DNA from: Balneolaceae bacterium
Lineage (GTDB): Bacteria; Bacteroidota; Rhodothermia; Balneolales; Balneolaceae
Direction of reading: 5' to 3'
Length of the DNA stretch: 64,000 nt
Assembly: GCA_020832415.1 (NCBI GenBank)
Contig: JAFIES010000048.1
Span: 80,197-144,196, forward strand
The notes below the pieces were generated by a model. That model saw nothing but the letters and a program-made list of their open reading frames with translations. It had not been told where the DNA came from and did no database searches. A program made the translations under genes and the position numbers. Every line of letters starts with the position of its first letter. The stretch's first letter is position 1. Of this stretch, positions 57,417-63,481 are shown one piece after another.

Positions 57417-58040
57417 TCAAACAGTGCCTGAAGCCTTTTTCTCGCTTTCTTGGTAGACAAGATTCAGAAAATTCTGAAGAAGCAGTGAGCCAACCTGACC
57501 CGATTTTTCGGGATGAAACTGCACGCCCATAAAGTTGTCTTTGGCAACAACGGCTGCAAAATCCTTAATATAATTGCAGGATGCGAGTGTAAATTCGTTT
57601 GTAGGCGCATAGTAGCCATGCACGTAGTACAAAAACTGCTTGTTACCAATGCCGGTTATCAGGGGATGGTCTATAAGAGGATTGAATTGGTTCCAGCCCA
57701 TATGGGGAACTTTAGCCTGTGAAGAGTCAAACTTTTTAAGCCTTCCGGGAATAATTCCAAGTGTTTTACAATCGCCCTCTTCTGATGACTCAAACAGTAA
57801 CTGCATTCCAAGGCAGATACCCAAGACAGGTTTTTTGGTGTTTTTGATCCAAACATCAAGATCTTTTGCACGCAGATCATCCATCGCAGCGGCAGCGTGC
57901 CCCACACCGGGAAAAATAATAGCATCTGCTTTATCCAGCTCTTCAGAGTTGTTGGATACAAAATACTCTGCACCAAGCCTTGCCAGTGCATTTTCAACAG
58001 ATGCCAGATTTCCGGCTTTATATTTAATAATTCCTATCAT
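57417..58040 (-). CDS. hisH: Imidazole glycerol phosphate synthase subunit HisH (likely ATG at 58040)
   Basis: MIGIIKYKAGNLASVENAL; IIFPGVGHAAAAM; VLGICLGMQLLFESSEEG; GVQFHPEKSGQVG. Confidence 0.95.
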   Translation of the reverse strand: MIGIIKYKAGNLASVENALARLGAEYFVSNNSEELDKADAIIFPGVGHAAAAMDDLRAKDLDVWIKNTKKPVLGICLGMQLLFESSEEGDCKTLGIIPGRLKKFDSSQAKVPHMGWNQFNPLIDHPLITGIGNKQFLYYVHGYYAPTNEFTLASCNYIKDFAAVVAKDNFMGVQFHPEKSGQVGSLLLQNFLNLVYQESEKKASGTV

Positions 58041-58090
58041 TGTTGTATTTAGTGAAAGGTGAGAAGGCAAACGTGAAAAGTTACCCAATG

Positions 58091-58161
58091 TCATTCTGAA
58101 TCTGATTCATAATTCCCCAACCGATTTGTTGTCAAGAGATTTTTCTATGTATTCAGAATGA
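58091..58161. repeat. Foldback repeat between hisB and hisH
   Basis: TCATTCTGAAT (58091-58101) / ATTCAGAATGA (58151-58161), 11-bp perfect inverted repeat. Confidence 0.6.
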
Positions 58162-58180
58162 TCGAGTCAACTACTTTTTC

Positions 58181-58205
58181 TTTTGCCTTTTGCCTTTTGC
58201 CTTTT
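58181..58205. repeat. Heptameric short tandem repeat (TTTTGCC)x3.5
   Basis: ttttgccttttgccttttgcctttt. Confidence 0.85.
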
Positions 58206-58208
58206 CAC

Positions 58209-59087
58209 TCAAATTGTTCCTTTTGTTGAGGGGAGAATGCCCATAATTCGTTCATTTCGGCTGATTGAAAATCGTAATGCTTTCGCAAAACCTTTGAACA
58301 CAGCTTCTATAACATGATGTTCATTTTTTCCATCCGCTTTAACATGCAACGTAGCTTTGGCGTTCATTGCTAATGTATAAAAAAAGTGTTCGAGCATTTC
58401 GGTTGGGAAATCTCCCACATATTCCCGTTTAAGAGGTACATCCCAGACAAGGTAGGGTCGGTCGGAAAGGTCGATAGCAACCGTGGCTTGCGCCTCATCC
58501 ATGGGGAGAACAAATCCGTATCGCTGGATTCCGGCTTTATTATCAGATATTGCCTGCCGAATGGCCTGGCCGAGCGCAATTGCAGTATCCTCAATGGTAT
58601 GGTGCTCATCCACTTCCAAATCACCAATACAGGTCAGAACTATGTCTATAAGGCCATGCCGTGCAATTTGATCGAGCATGTGATCGAAGAAATGTATCCC
58701 GGTTTTGATGGTACTTTTACCGGTTCCATCAAGGTTGATGGAAATATCAATTTTCGTCTCCTTGGTATCACGTTTGATTGACGCTTTTCGAACAGGGAAT
58801 AAAATATTTTGAGCAAGCTCTTTCCATGAGTTACCAGATGCAAGCAGGTTCCCCTCAGAAACAAACGAGTAGTCTCCGTTTTTTTGAATGATCGCTTCCT
58901 CTTTGCCATCGGTGCTAATGATACCCTCATTTTCGAGTAGATTTTTCTGCTCGGGTGATAGCGCTGAAACATCAAATTTCAGTTTGTAATTGTGCCGAAT
59001 CAGATAGCCCATGCCAAAAAGAGCAGTTGGGGGGAGCAAGTTTGGATTTTCACTATTAAGTGCGCTCTGTTCGATTAAAATTATCAT
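58209..59087 (-). CDS. hisB: Imidazoleglycerol-phosphate dehydratase with atypical N-terminal extension of about 97 aa
   Basis: RDTKETKIDISINLDGTGKSTIKTGIHFFDHMLDQIARHG; DEHHTIEDTAIALGQA; start codon overlaps the hisC stop (ATGA). Confidence 0.94.
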   Translation of the reverse strand: MIILIEQSALNSENPNLLPPTALFGMGYLIRHNYKLKFDVSALSPEQKNLLENEGIISTDGKEEAIIQKNGDYSFVSEGNLLASGNSWKELAQNILFPVRKASIKRDTKETKIDISINLDGTGKSTIKTGIHFFDHMLDQIARHGLIDIVLTCIGDLEVDEHHTIEDTAIALGQAIRQAISDNKAGIQRYGFVLPMDEAQATVAIDLSDRPYLVWDVPLKREYVGDFPTEMLEHFFYTLAMNAKATLHVKADGKNEHHVIEAVFKGFAKALRFSISRNERIMGILPSTKGTI

Positions 59088-60142
59088 GCAAGAACCTCTT
59101 TTAGGGTTTTTAAAAATCGGATGTTTTCATCGGGCATGCCAATGGTTACGCGAAGGCAGTTTTCGCAGAGAGGCTCGTTGCCACGATAGCGAACAATGAT
59201 GCCTTTTTCTGCAAGCTTTCTATACACTTCCTCTGCATTTTTGATTTTAAAAAGCAGAAAGTTTGAATCGGATGGATATACTTTTTCAACATCTTCTGCA
59301 TGCCTTAGCTGCTCAGCAACATATTGCCGATCTTCTCTGATTTTATTCAGGTTGAATTTCATAAGATCCATAGCATCAAATGCCTGTAAGGCAACATCTG
59401 CAGTAAGCTTGTTGATATTATACGGAGCTTTAACCTTCAGCATATATTGAATGATCTCCGGGTTGGCAATGGCTATCCCTAACCGGATGCCGGCCAGGCC
59501 GAATGATTTTGAGAACGTTTGAAGCACAACAAGATTGGGATATTGCTGAACCAATGCAGCCATCGACTCCTGCCTGCTAAAATCGATGTAGGCTTCATCT
59601 ACTACAACGATTCCGGGAAATGCAGCGATCAGCTTAAGCATATCGGTGCGCTTTAGATCGTTGGATGTCGGATTGTTTGGAGAACAGAGGAAAAGCAATT
59701 TTACAGATTCATCAGCAGCGGCCAGTACATCTTCGGTTCGAAGCTGAAATTTCTCATCGAGTAAAACTTCCTTCACCTTCACATCATTTATGGATGCAGA
59801 AACTTTGTACATGCCATATGTTGGCGGGGTGGTGATGACAGAATCACTTCCCGGATTGCAGAAAATTCTCATCAGCAAATCAATCGGCTCATCACTGCCA
59901 ACACCAAGGAATATGTTTTCAAAATCCACACCACGCCAGGCTGCAATCTTTTTACGAAGCTCATTTTGCACAGGGCTTGGATATCTGTGCAGATGGAGAG
60001 AATTTCTAACCGGAGCCCCGAGGCTGTTTTCATTCGCATCGAGAAGAAGTCCCGAGTCGAAATCATCGCGCGCGCTTCGGTACGGTTTTAATTTTCGGAT
60101 ATTTTCCCGGACAAGGGATTCAATATTGATGGATTTGGGCAT
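59084..60142 (-). CDS. hisC: Histidinol-phosphate aminotransferase
   Basis: NPTSNDLKRTDMLKLIAAFPGIVVVDEAYIDFS; LQTFSKSFGLAGIRLG. Confidence 0.95.
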   Translation of the reverse strand: MPKSINIESLVRENIRKLKPYRSARDDFDSGLLLDANENSLGAPVRNSLHLHRYPSPVQNELRKKIAAWRGVDFENIFLGVGSDEPIDLLMRIFCNPGSDSVITTPPTYGMYKVSASINDVKVKEVLLDEKFQLRTEDVLAAADESVKLLFLCSPNNPTSNDLKRTDMLKLIAAFPGIVVVDEAYIDFSRQESMAALVQQYPNLVVLQTFSKSFGLAGIRLGIAIANPEIIQYMLKVKAPYNINKLTADVALQAFDAMDLMKFNLNKIREDRQYVAEQLRHAEDVEKVYPSDSNFLLFKIKNAEEVYRKLAEKGIIVRYRGNEPLCENCLRVTIGMPDENIRFLKTLKEVLA

Positions 60143-60205
60143 TAGATAAATCGTTTAAATAATTCAGGTAATTAATACCAAGTTCTACCCCTTTTCAATG
60201 AGGGG

Positions 60206-61525
60206 TTATTCTTCAGCTGCATGTAACTTTTTCAACCTAACACTAACTGCATTCTTGTGGGCATCCAGCCCTTCAATTTCAGCGAGTGTTTCAACGGTTG
60301 GGCCTAAATTTTTGAGACCCGTTTTACTGATTTTTTGCATGGTAATATATTTCTGAAAACTTTGCAGTGAAACCCCGCTGTACATTCGTGCATAGCCATA
60401 TGTTGGCAGTGTATGGTTGGTTCCTGAAGCGTAATCTCCCATGCTTTCAGGTGTCCATTGGCCAATAAAAACAGACCCGGCATTTTCAACATGCTCAGCA
60501 AGTTTGTCAGCATTTTTTGTATTGATAATGAGATGCTCAGGCGCGTATCTGTTCGAAAATTCCATTGCTTCACCGGTGGATTGAACCACTACTGTAAAGC
60601 TGTTTTTCAGGGCATCTTTCGCGAACTCTTTTCTCGGTAGTTTTTCAAGCTGAATTTCAACAGCCGAATTGATTGCATCGAAATCTGCTTTTTTTGTGAT
60701 TACCAAAACCACCTGGCTATCCGATCCATGTTCTGCCTGGGATAGCAAATCGGCTGCGATAAAGTCTGGATCTGCGGTTTCATCAGCAATAACCAAAACT
60801 TCAGACGGGCCTGCGGGCATATCAATCGAAACCATCGCTTCACTATTTTGGAGGATCATTTTCGCGGCCGTTACATATTGGTTTCCCGGGCCAAAGAGTT
60901 TATCAACCTTTGGGATTGATTCTGTTCCAAATGCCATGCCCGCTATAGCTTGCGCACCTCCCGCTTTTACAACCGCGGCGGCACCAATTTTTTGCGCAAT
61001 GTAGAGTATTGATTCGGGGATATTTCCGGAACTGTCGGGCGGAGTTGCAATCACGATGGTTTTGCAGCCAGCAACAAGTGCCGGCACTCCAAGCATCATG
61101 GTGGTAGAGGGCAGGGGTGCTGTCCCTCCGGGAATGTAGAGGCCAACCCGTTCTATCGGTTTGGCTACCCTATGGCAAATAACGCCCTTCATCGTCTGTA
61201 CCCTTAAATCGGCCGAAAACTGCTCCCTGTGAAACTTGAATATGTTGCTTAATGCCCGGTCAATAGCATCTTTAATTTTTGGCGATAATGTAACCGATAC
61301 AGCAGAAGGGTCTATTGTAAGCGGATCCGGATCAATTCCGTCAAATTTCTTCGTGTATTTCCGGATTGCAGAATCGCCGTTTTTTTCCACATCATCCAGA
61401 ATTGGCTGAACCTGGCCAAACACTGCAGAAAAGTCCATTTTAGGACGTTTGATCAAATCATCAATTTGCGATGGTGTGAGAGATGAGTAGTTGTATATTT
61501 TCATTTTTGGCAGACTAATCCTCAA
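60206..61525 (-). CDS. hisD: Histidinol dehydrogenase
   Basis: [80 protein letters not shown]. Confidence 0.96.
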
Positions 61526-61528
61526 ATA

Positions 61529-62407
61529 TTAAACAATCATCGATTCAATTGGCAGCATCACAATACCTGTGGCACCGGCTTCTTTTAACTGCTCCATCAC
61601 ATCCCAAAAAGTAGACAGGGGTATAACTGTATGGATTGCAACCATGCCGTTATCGGCCAGAGGCATAACAGTAGGACTCTTAAGTGATGGAATAATCGAT
61701 TTGATTTTAGGAACCGACTCCTGCGGGGCGTTCATCATGATATAGCGGCTTTCCGCAGCTTTTTTGTACCCTTCTATTCGCTGTAAAATCTTTTCAATTA
61801 AGTGCTTTTTACCATCTGAAAGAGGTTTGTTGGTTTGAATGAGCTGTGTTTCTGAATCGAAAATTGTTTCAATTTCCTGGAGCCCGTTTGCTTTCAATGT
61901 GCCTCCTGTTGAAACGAGATCGGTAATGGCATCGGCAATCTCAAGGCGTGGAGCTATTTCTACTGAACCCGAAAGTGTGATGATATCAACATCAATATTT
62001 TTTGAACTGAAATACTTTCGCGTTAATACCGGATAACTTGTAGCGATTTTTTTCCCGGCAAAATCTTCAGCTGTACGGATATCACCATTTTTTGGAACAG
62101 CAATTGAGAGCCGGCAAACGCCATAACCAAGTCCGCGAAGTACGGTAACATCTGCTTCATCTTCGGCAACGGTGTTTGCGCCAACAAACCCGAGATCGCA
62201 AACACCATCTTCTACATATTCAGGAATATCATCATCACGGATGAGGAGAAGTTCTACATCAAAATTCAGGCATTTGATGAGCAGACTTCGTTTGTAATCG
62301 TCAAATTTCAGCCCGATTCCATCGAGCAGGTTTAATGTTTTGTCGGTAAGGCGTCCGCTTTTTTGTACGGCGATTCGCAGCGAAGTGGTTGAATCGAGAG
62401 TTCTCAT
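61529..62407 (-). CDS. hisG: ATP phosphoribosyltransferase, long form
   Basis: LRIAVQKSGRLTDKTLNLLDGIGL; DLGFVGANTVAED; ITDLVSTGGTLKANGL; C-terminal regulatory-type region. Confidence 0.95.
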   Translation of the reverse strand: MRTLDSTTSLRIAVQKSGRLTDKTLNLLDGIGLKFDDYKRSLLIKCLNFDVELLLIRDDDIPEYVEDGVCDLGFVGANTVAEDEADVTVLRGLGYGVCRLSIAVPKNGDIRTAEDFAGKKIATSYPVLTRKYFSSKNIDVDIITLSGSVEIAPRLEIADAITDLVSTGGTLKANGLQEIETIFDSETQLIQTNKPLSDGKKHLIEKILQRIEGYKKAAESRYIMMNAPQESVPKIKSIIPSLKSPTVMPLADNGMVAIHTVIPLSTFWDVMEQLKEAGATGIVMLPIESMIV

Positions 62408-62475
62408 AATAATAATAAAATTAGGTTGTTAGAAAAATTTCAGACGGGGATAAATGGCAGGTGCAAGAGCAGAGA

Positions 62476-62550
62476 TTAATGCACAAAATGGCCATGACTG
62501 CTGTGATGGCAGTGAAAATGATGAGCGGTATGGATAATTCTCAATATCAC
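62476..62550 (-). CDS. Candidate his operon leader peptide (24 aa, GTG start), not in the supplied ORF track
   Basis: MILRIIHTAHHFHCHHSSHGHFVH*: 9 His in the last 18 residues; stop codon 68 nt before the hisG ATG. Confidence 0.8.
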   Translation of the reverse strand: MILRIIHTAHHFHCHHSSHGHFVH

Positions 62551-62623
62551 GTAACAAAGTTATGAATTCAGTTTAGTAAAAACCAATGGAATCTAAGAAA
62601 GGCAATCCTGAAGAAAATAATTC

Positions 62624-62659
62624 CAAAAAAAAGCCGGCACTGTAAACAGTACCGGCTTA
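62624..62659 (-). terminator. Intrinsic terminator of the DUF4382 lipoprotein gene
   Basis: Minus strand: AAGCCGG t ACTG ttta CAGT g CCGGCTTTTTTTTT. Confidence 0.85.
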
Positions 62660-62686
62660 AATAGCGTAATAAAAATTGCAGAGACT

Positions 62687-63481
62687 TTACTCTAATGTGA
62701 CGGTTCCAACATTTGTGGTGTCAGGGGCACTAACCTGAACATTGGAAAGAATTGTCATACTGTTTTCACCATTGGTCGGTACAATAGAAACCTGATAAGT
62801 TCCGGAGAGTAATCCAATCATCAGGAAATCGCCATTGGCTTCTGCACGGGTACCTGCAAGGGTATCTTCACCGGCGATTGCGTAAACCCAGGGTTCAATG
62901 CCTGCAGGTTCAATTGTACCCTCAATTGCGCCGGACTGTTCAAGCCAAGCTGTACGGATAACAGGTTTCAAAATGTACATACCCGAATTACCGGCTCGTA
63001 CAATGGATCTTGAAGCGTCAAAATCCAAGATAAGTGTGTGCATTTGACCACCTTCAATGTCAGCATTTAGCTGAAGTTTGAGGCCTGATTGCTGAGCACT
63101 CGGTGTGGTTAAATTGTGGGTTTCACCATCAATAACAACCTCGTTATTTTCTCCCAGTATCAGTCGTAACTGGTTGTATCGGCCTGGTTCAAGATCAGTT
63201 TCGCCGAGAATTTCAAATTTTCCATTGGTAAGCTGAAGAAGGTCAACAATCATAGGCTCTGTGTTGATATCAATCCAGCCACTCTCTCCATCCTCAGCAT
63301 CGCTGCTTCGGTGAATGCGTACAGCTTGTATATCTACATAGACAGCTTCGTAATTACCGGGGGCATCTGTAAGAAATACACGCAATGTTCCATGATCTGA
63401 ATCGCTCGATGCATTATCACTGCAGCTAACAGCTACCAATGCACCAAGTAAAAGTATTAGTAGCGTTTGTAAGAATTTCAT
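62687..63481 (-). CDS. DUF4382-type lipoprotein (likely ATG at 63481)
   Basis: MKFLQTLLILLLGALVAVSCSDN lipobox; GTLRVFLTDAPGNYEAVYVDIQAVRIH; GRYNQLRLILGENNEV. Confidence 0.85.
   Translation of the reverse strand: MKFLQTLLILLLGALVAVSCSDNASSDSDHGTLRVFLTDAPGNYEAVYVDIQAVRIHRSSDAEDGESGWIDINTEPMIVDLLQLTNGKFEILGETDLEPGRYNQLRLILGENNEVVIDGETHNLTTPSAQQSGLKLQLNADIEGGQMHTLILDFDASRSIVRAGNSGMYILKPVIRTAWLEQSGAIEGTIEPAGIEPWVYAIAGEDTLAGTRAEANGDFLMIGLLSGTYQVSIVPTNGENSMTILSNVQVSAPDTTNVGTVTLE

Follow-up and report, generated by a model that had tools for sequence, protein, structure and literature searches.

A histidine-rich leader peptide upstream of hisG in Balneolaceae, with a predicted leaderless start and a possibly Rho-dependent output

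The his Locus and Its Leader ORF

The window, defined here as the whole 64-kb stretch of DNA that was analysed, is part of the 3.94 Mb genome of an uncultured, Rhodohalobacter-like member of the Balneolaceae. By HisG comparison, the closest named relatives are Balneolaceae MAGs and Rhodohalobacter species; Rhodohalobacter is a member of the Balneolaceae, Balneolales. The features at the head of the his cluster are as follows.

57417-61525, minus strand: hisD, hisC, hisB, and hisH, located 3' of hisG (ORFs and NCBIfam)
61529-62407, minus strand: hisG (ATP phosphoribosyltransferase), the first gene of the his cluster (TIGR00070, TIGR03455)
62475-62408, minus strand: post-leader stretch, C-rich, G-poor, and without an intrinsic terminator; possible Rho loading site
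62550-62476, minus strand: His-rich leader peptide ORF with a GTG start and a TAA stop, 24 amino acids with 9 His

The product of the leader ORF is VILRIIHTAHHFHCHHSSHGHFVH. The His codons are dispersed, with HxH and HxxH spacing, and none of 20,000 base shuffles of the ORF contained at least nine His. The TAA at 62476 lies 68 nucleotides upstream of the hisG ATG at 62407. The ORF was first reported in a preliminary description of this DNA, and on re-reading its ends, its start and stop codons, its nine His, and its distance from hisG match exactly.

The HisB of this cluster (58209-59087, minus strand) has approximately 97 N-terminal residues beyond most HisB models. Balneolota HisB is described as having a short domain at its N terminus whose function is unclear (PMC8305728).

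Conservation of the Leader

Regions upstream of hisG were sampled from approximately 100 relatives and another 40 genomes in the phylum. The core comparison set is composed of 55 non-identical Balneolaceae upstream regions, which are related sequences whose counts are not independent. All 55 contain a His-rich ORF, 19 to 29 codons in length, which ends 56-127 nucleotides before hisG and begins with GTG in 45 cases and ATG in 10. The mean number of His per leader is 8.7, against 1.2 expected from shuffled bases. The leader frame contains 478 His codons and no stops, while the other two frames contain 26 and 24 His codons and 58 and 33 stops. The peptide sequence itself drifts (HHFHCHHSSHGHFVH, HHDVHHPHQGHHHIHVH, HHHGGFDRQ) and only the His content is constant, a pattern that points to a codon sensor rather than a functional peptide.

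A short ORF that is rich in the codons of the operon's product and lies directly before the operon is the general mark of an amino-acid attenuator, and this is the arrangement found here. The preliminary description had read the ORF as a counterpart of the enterobacterial hisL and had proposed a comparison with related genomes. That comparison bears the reading out as far as a conserved, in-frame, His-specific ORF before hisG is concerned, and it suggests hisL-like working. Given the conservation of the ORF in all 55 upstream regions and its constant His content, control of the his operon by a His leader peptide is judged very probable from these comparisons.

The leaders of five Fodinibius/Aliifodinibius upstream regions have a different 3' end, with GGFDRQ or GGWPRQ preceding the stop. 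They also carry an extra hairpin after the stop, whose stem sequence varies (TGTAGCCGAGGCTACA, GTAGCTGAAGCTAC). No clear His-rich leader is present upstream of hisG in 12 of the Balneolales sampled, where the attenuator seems to have been lost.

Promoter and Predicted Start

Three features upstream of the leader bear on where its transcription begins.

62562-62555, minus strand: -7 box TAACTTTG (TAnnTTTG), 4 nucleotides before the leader GTG
62586-62583, minus strand: -33 element TTGG, 21 nucleotides before the -7 box (62583-62563, counting from the final base of TTG)
62658-62631: intrinsic terminator of the preceding gene

An ATTGG-like motif occurs at the corresponding position in most upstream regions of the Rhodohalobacter group. 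A box matching at least five of the six fixed positions, at a spacing of 4-5 nucleotides, is present before 40 of the 55 leaders and before 2.1% of 623 controls, which are the other start triplets in the same upstream regions. Mapped start sites in Flavobacterium psychrophilum place the sigma-A box at -12 to -5 (PMC9723704). Applied to the window, this position puts +1 at G62550, the leader GTG. From the conserved spacing and the published box position, the leader mRNA is likely to be leaderless, with a predicted transcription start at the start codon or within 1 nucleotide of it.

The preliminary description missed this spacing. It had raised a hisG transcription start downstream of 62476 as an objection to the leader; no conserved promoter lies there, as a full -7 box occurs between the leader and hisG in 1 of the 55 upstream regions and 1.8 are expected by shuffling. 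A second promoter at that site was rejected because the boxes are not conserved. With the terminator of the preceding gene on one side and no conserved box behind the leader on the other, the box before the GTG is the likely promoter.

Terminators and Post-Leader Composition

A strict terminator finder accepting only perfect stems failed to detect 6 of 10 obvious trp terminators, and a mismatch-tolerant finder was used in its place. The tolerant finder detects terminators in 23 of 30 his leaders of other Bacteroidota and in 9 of 10 Balneolales trp leaders, but behind none of the 55 Balneolaceae his leaders. Among 18 other Balneolales his upstream regions, one has a terminator-like site, which is weak. 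With the strict finder there was a single hit, a weak one in L086. The four clear Ignavibacteria-type his leaders all have a terminator. The preliminary description had remarked that no clean U-run follows the lower of its two hairpins, and the window indeed has no terminator; what it missed is that terminator absence is a speciality of the Balneolales. Since his leaders of other Bacteroidota and of Ignavibacteria carry terminators, the ancestral leader probably had one. As judged from this distribution, the terminator was probably lost from the his leader in Balneolales and kept for trp in the same order.

The RNA between the leader and hisG is biased in composition. It is 26% C and 7% G in the window, and 26% C and 6% G across the 55 relatives. 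The 31 other upstream regions of the window are 18% C and 17% G, and the post-leader sequence of other Bacteroidota his leaders is 17% C and 16% G. The post-leader RNA is also U-rich (43% T). A RhoTermPredict-like (rut-like) pattern is present in 47 of the 55 Balneolaceae and in 10 of 30 other Bacteroidota, and the genome contains a rho gene. C-rich, G-poor, and largely unstructured RNA behind the leader is characteristic of a Rho attenuator and is what is seen here, although the C bias could have a cause other than Rho loading.

A search of Rfam with cmscan up to E = 1 gave no match to RF00514 (His_leader). The Rfam hits at 62620-62748 were rejected; they score far below the gathering scores and overlap the terminator of the upstream gene.

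Hairpin Structures

Two hairpins were identified in the leader region of the window.

62513-62497, minus strand: H1, a hairpin within the His codons, with arms ACTGC (62513-62509) and GCAGT (62501-62497), from the centroid fold
62495-62454, minus strand: H2, a hairpin spanning the stop codon, from the centroid fold and from relatives

H2 has an inner pair of arms, GTGCA and TGCAC (62484-62480 and 62465-62461), and an outer pair, ATGGC and GCCAT (62495-62491 and 62458-62454). In the centroid fold of the window H1 and H2 adjoin and can coexist. Overall fold stability in the window is ordinary (z of -0.46).

At H2, 52 of the 55 relatives fold better than versions shuffled after the stop (mean z of -1.26), with a per-species significance that is modest (median p of 0.2). 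The hairpin is short and has long loops in Rhodohalobacter. Its stems differ in sequence between relatives (for example, ACGCGTAAATAGCGT and ACGCATAAATTGCGT), and its 5' arm frequently ends 1-2 nucleotides upstream of the stop. The helix equivalent to H1 covaries in the Gracilimonas/Balneola group, with 99.2% of cells paired and a score reached by none of 500 shuffles. In the Rhodohalobacter group, to which the window belongs, H1 pair counts do not exceed those of shuffles. Shuffling the ORF among synonymous codons gives H1 weak support (mean z of -0.27), and neither the covariation nor the shuffle controls for H1 and H2 are strict, the sequences being related. For the Rhodohalobacter group, RNAalifold found no consensus structure in a MAFFT alignment, as indels misalign the 3' arms, and helix-wise tests replaced it.

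The preliminary description had proposed a two-way switch in which one ATGGC pairs either with a GCCAT inside the His codons or with a second GCCAT downstream. Its positions for both GCCAT segments (62510-62506 and 62458-62454) and for GTGCA and TGCAC are correct, but ATGGC lies at 62495-62491 and not at 62492-62488. The upstream pairing does appear as an alternative in the closest species when the ORF is folded alone; it is not kept across the genus. The conserved hairpins are instead H1 and H2; the either/or arrangement applies at best to the closest species.

Pairing over the hisG start is not conserved: of the 15 nucleotides in the start region, relatives have a mean of 1.4 paired to the leader ORF and 1.5 paired to the post-leader RNA, and sequestration of the start was discarded as a shared trait. 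This bears on translational control, in which the position of the leader ribosome would alter RNA structure or ribosome delivery and thereby regulate translation of hisG. The window by itself would suit such control, having no terminator behind the leader, a possible pairing of the first His codons to the start of hisG (CUCAU/AUGAG, minimum-energy fold), and 4.4 of 15 start-region nucleotides paired with the leader. Translational control, the main rival to a Rho output, is nevertheless unlikely, given that relatives do not keep the pairing, that the gap between leader stop and hisG exceeds ordinary coupling, and that the excess of C over G would be left unexplained.

H2 could also be imagined as an unusual intrinsic terminator, acting alone or extended by the U-rich stretch and working without a clean U-run. 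On stalling, however, such an H2 would shut the operon off during starvation, which reverses the expected logic, and in the window H2 is weak with large loops. The U-richness of the post-leader RNA, a possible AAGGACA...TGTTTTT pairing around H2 in two relatives (L083, L084), and the weak strict hit in L086 speak for it, against the absence of hits in all 55 by a finder that detects most trp and other his terminators. An H2 terminator is considered quite improbable.

Other Amino-Acid Leaders

The trpE gene of the same genome is preceded by a leader, MKNEIVHNTWWWHSLTYLAVESL, which is followed by a textbook intrinsic terminator. In relatives, clear terminators again follow the trpE leader, and in many species a TAnnTTTG-like box lies 4-6 nucleotides before its ATG.

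Upstream of ilvB in the window (45030-44833, minus strand) is an ORF of 65 amino acids that is rich in Ile, Leu, and Val. It begins with a GTG located 5 nucleotides after TAATTTTC, ends in SILLSLIIISILISGIILLNLIIS approximately 80 nucleotides before ilvB, and has a C-terminal part that is conserved in relatives (SILISGILNLILIIS). From its content and location it is likely an ilv leader peptide. Leaderless leaders may be common in Balneolales, and the loss of terminators may not be general there.

Short His-rich ORFs followed by intrinsic terminators are widespread before hisG in other Bacteroidota, in Ignavibacteria, and in similar genomes.

That the Balneolaceae ORF is a chance or non-regulatory one, either encoding a small peptide with a function of its own (metal binding, for example, which the HxH and HxxH spacing of its dispersed His might suggest) or being a by-product of CAT/CAC-rich RNA, is very improbable given the frame bias of its His codons and stops, its constant location directly upstream of hisG, its freedom of sequence apart from His content, the plain His runs and terminators at the corresponding site in other Bacteroidota, and the Trp-rich and Ile/Leu/Val-rich ORFs before trpE and ilvB in Balneolales.

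Proposed Mechanism

It is reasonably likely that a His-sensing leader peptide with a leaderless start controls the operon, whatever the output step. Transcription would begin at or within 1 nucleotide of the GTG, and the leader would be translated from a leaderless mRNA. When histidyl-tRNA is ample, the ribosome would reach the stop codon and cover the 5' arm of H2, blocking the hairpin. The C-rich, G-poor RNA after the stop would then be exposed, allowing Rho to load and to end the transcript either ahead of hisG or inside it. Under a shortage of histidyl-tRNA, the ribosome would stall at the upstream His codons, H2 would form and mask the Rho stretch, and transcription would proceed into hisG.

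Rho is favored as the output step on the basis of the missing terminator, the excess of C over G, the rut-like pattern, the rho gene, and the position of H2 over the stop codon. Its participation has somewhat under an even chance of being correct. The complete reading is that an older, terminator-type his attenuator was converted in Balneolales to a leaderless, Rho-dependent form in which H2, governed by the stalled ribosome, masks or uncovers the Rho site, with the trp leader keeping its terminator. This reading is given a probability of about 0.4.

Leader-peptide control of hisG very probably extends through Bacteroidota and Ignavibacteria. The gene and the sensor are unchanged, yet the output terminator is gone in one order that retains it for trp, and this contrast opens to direct testing whether the terminator gave way to a Rho-dependent device or to a translational one. 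The conserved spacing of 4-5 nucleotides between promoter and start codon suggests that leaderless leader peptides are a style of regulation in a group reported to have few leaderless mRNAs: 3.7% of 5' UTRs in Bacteroides thetaiotaomicron are under 10 nucleotides, and the figure for F. psychrophilum is 5.5% (PMC9723704).

Comparison with Known Systems

The classical His leader peptides are those of enterobacteria, where hisL forms the his attenuator (Rfam RF00514, His_leader). Like hisL, the window leader is a short His-rich ORF that stands at the start of the his operon, immediately before hisG. It differs in its dispersed His codons, lack of an intrinsic terminator, predicted leaderless start, and lack of a match to RF00514.

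In Flavobacteriaceae, a conserved 5' element of hisG and leader-peptide attenuation of amino-acid operons have been proposed (PMC9723704), and the F. psychrophilum element shares its gene and broad lineage with the window leader. In the flavobacteria-like and other Bacteroidota loci compared, the his leader mostly follows a longer 5' UTR and is itself followed by a textbook terminator; in Balneolaceae both are missing. The word "leader" does not occur in a study of his genes in the superphylum (PMC8305728). A literature search that had most subscription-journal papers outside its reach found no earlier description of such an arrangement for Balneolales.

LeuL1, TrpL1, and IlvL of Streptomyces lividans are leaderless leader peptides, and LeuL1 is without a typical Rho-independent terminator (PMC8079986). 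These are actinobacterial, serve other amino acids, and were mapped experimentally, whereas the Balneolaceae leaderless start is predicted. Mycobacterial cys leader peptides have no obvious terminator, and a polypyrimidine stretch that is not conserved has been proposed as their Rho site (PMC1262725). The Balneolaceae leader is instead His-specific, and its excess of C over G is common to all 55 upstream regions.

Rho-dependent leader-peptide systems form the remaining comparison. The mgtL leader of the E. coli/Salmonella group is one such system. Another, tnaC, senses free tryptophan through nascent-chain arrest and directly blocks Rho (PMC8429421, PMC3902921). In tnaC-like systems, as proposed here, the leader ribosome decides the access of Rho to the RNA behind the ORF; unlike in tnaC, starvation stalling together with a hairpin would control Rho in the Balneolaceae.
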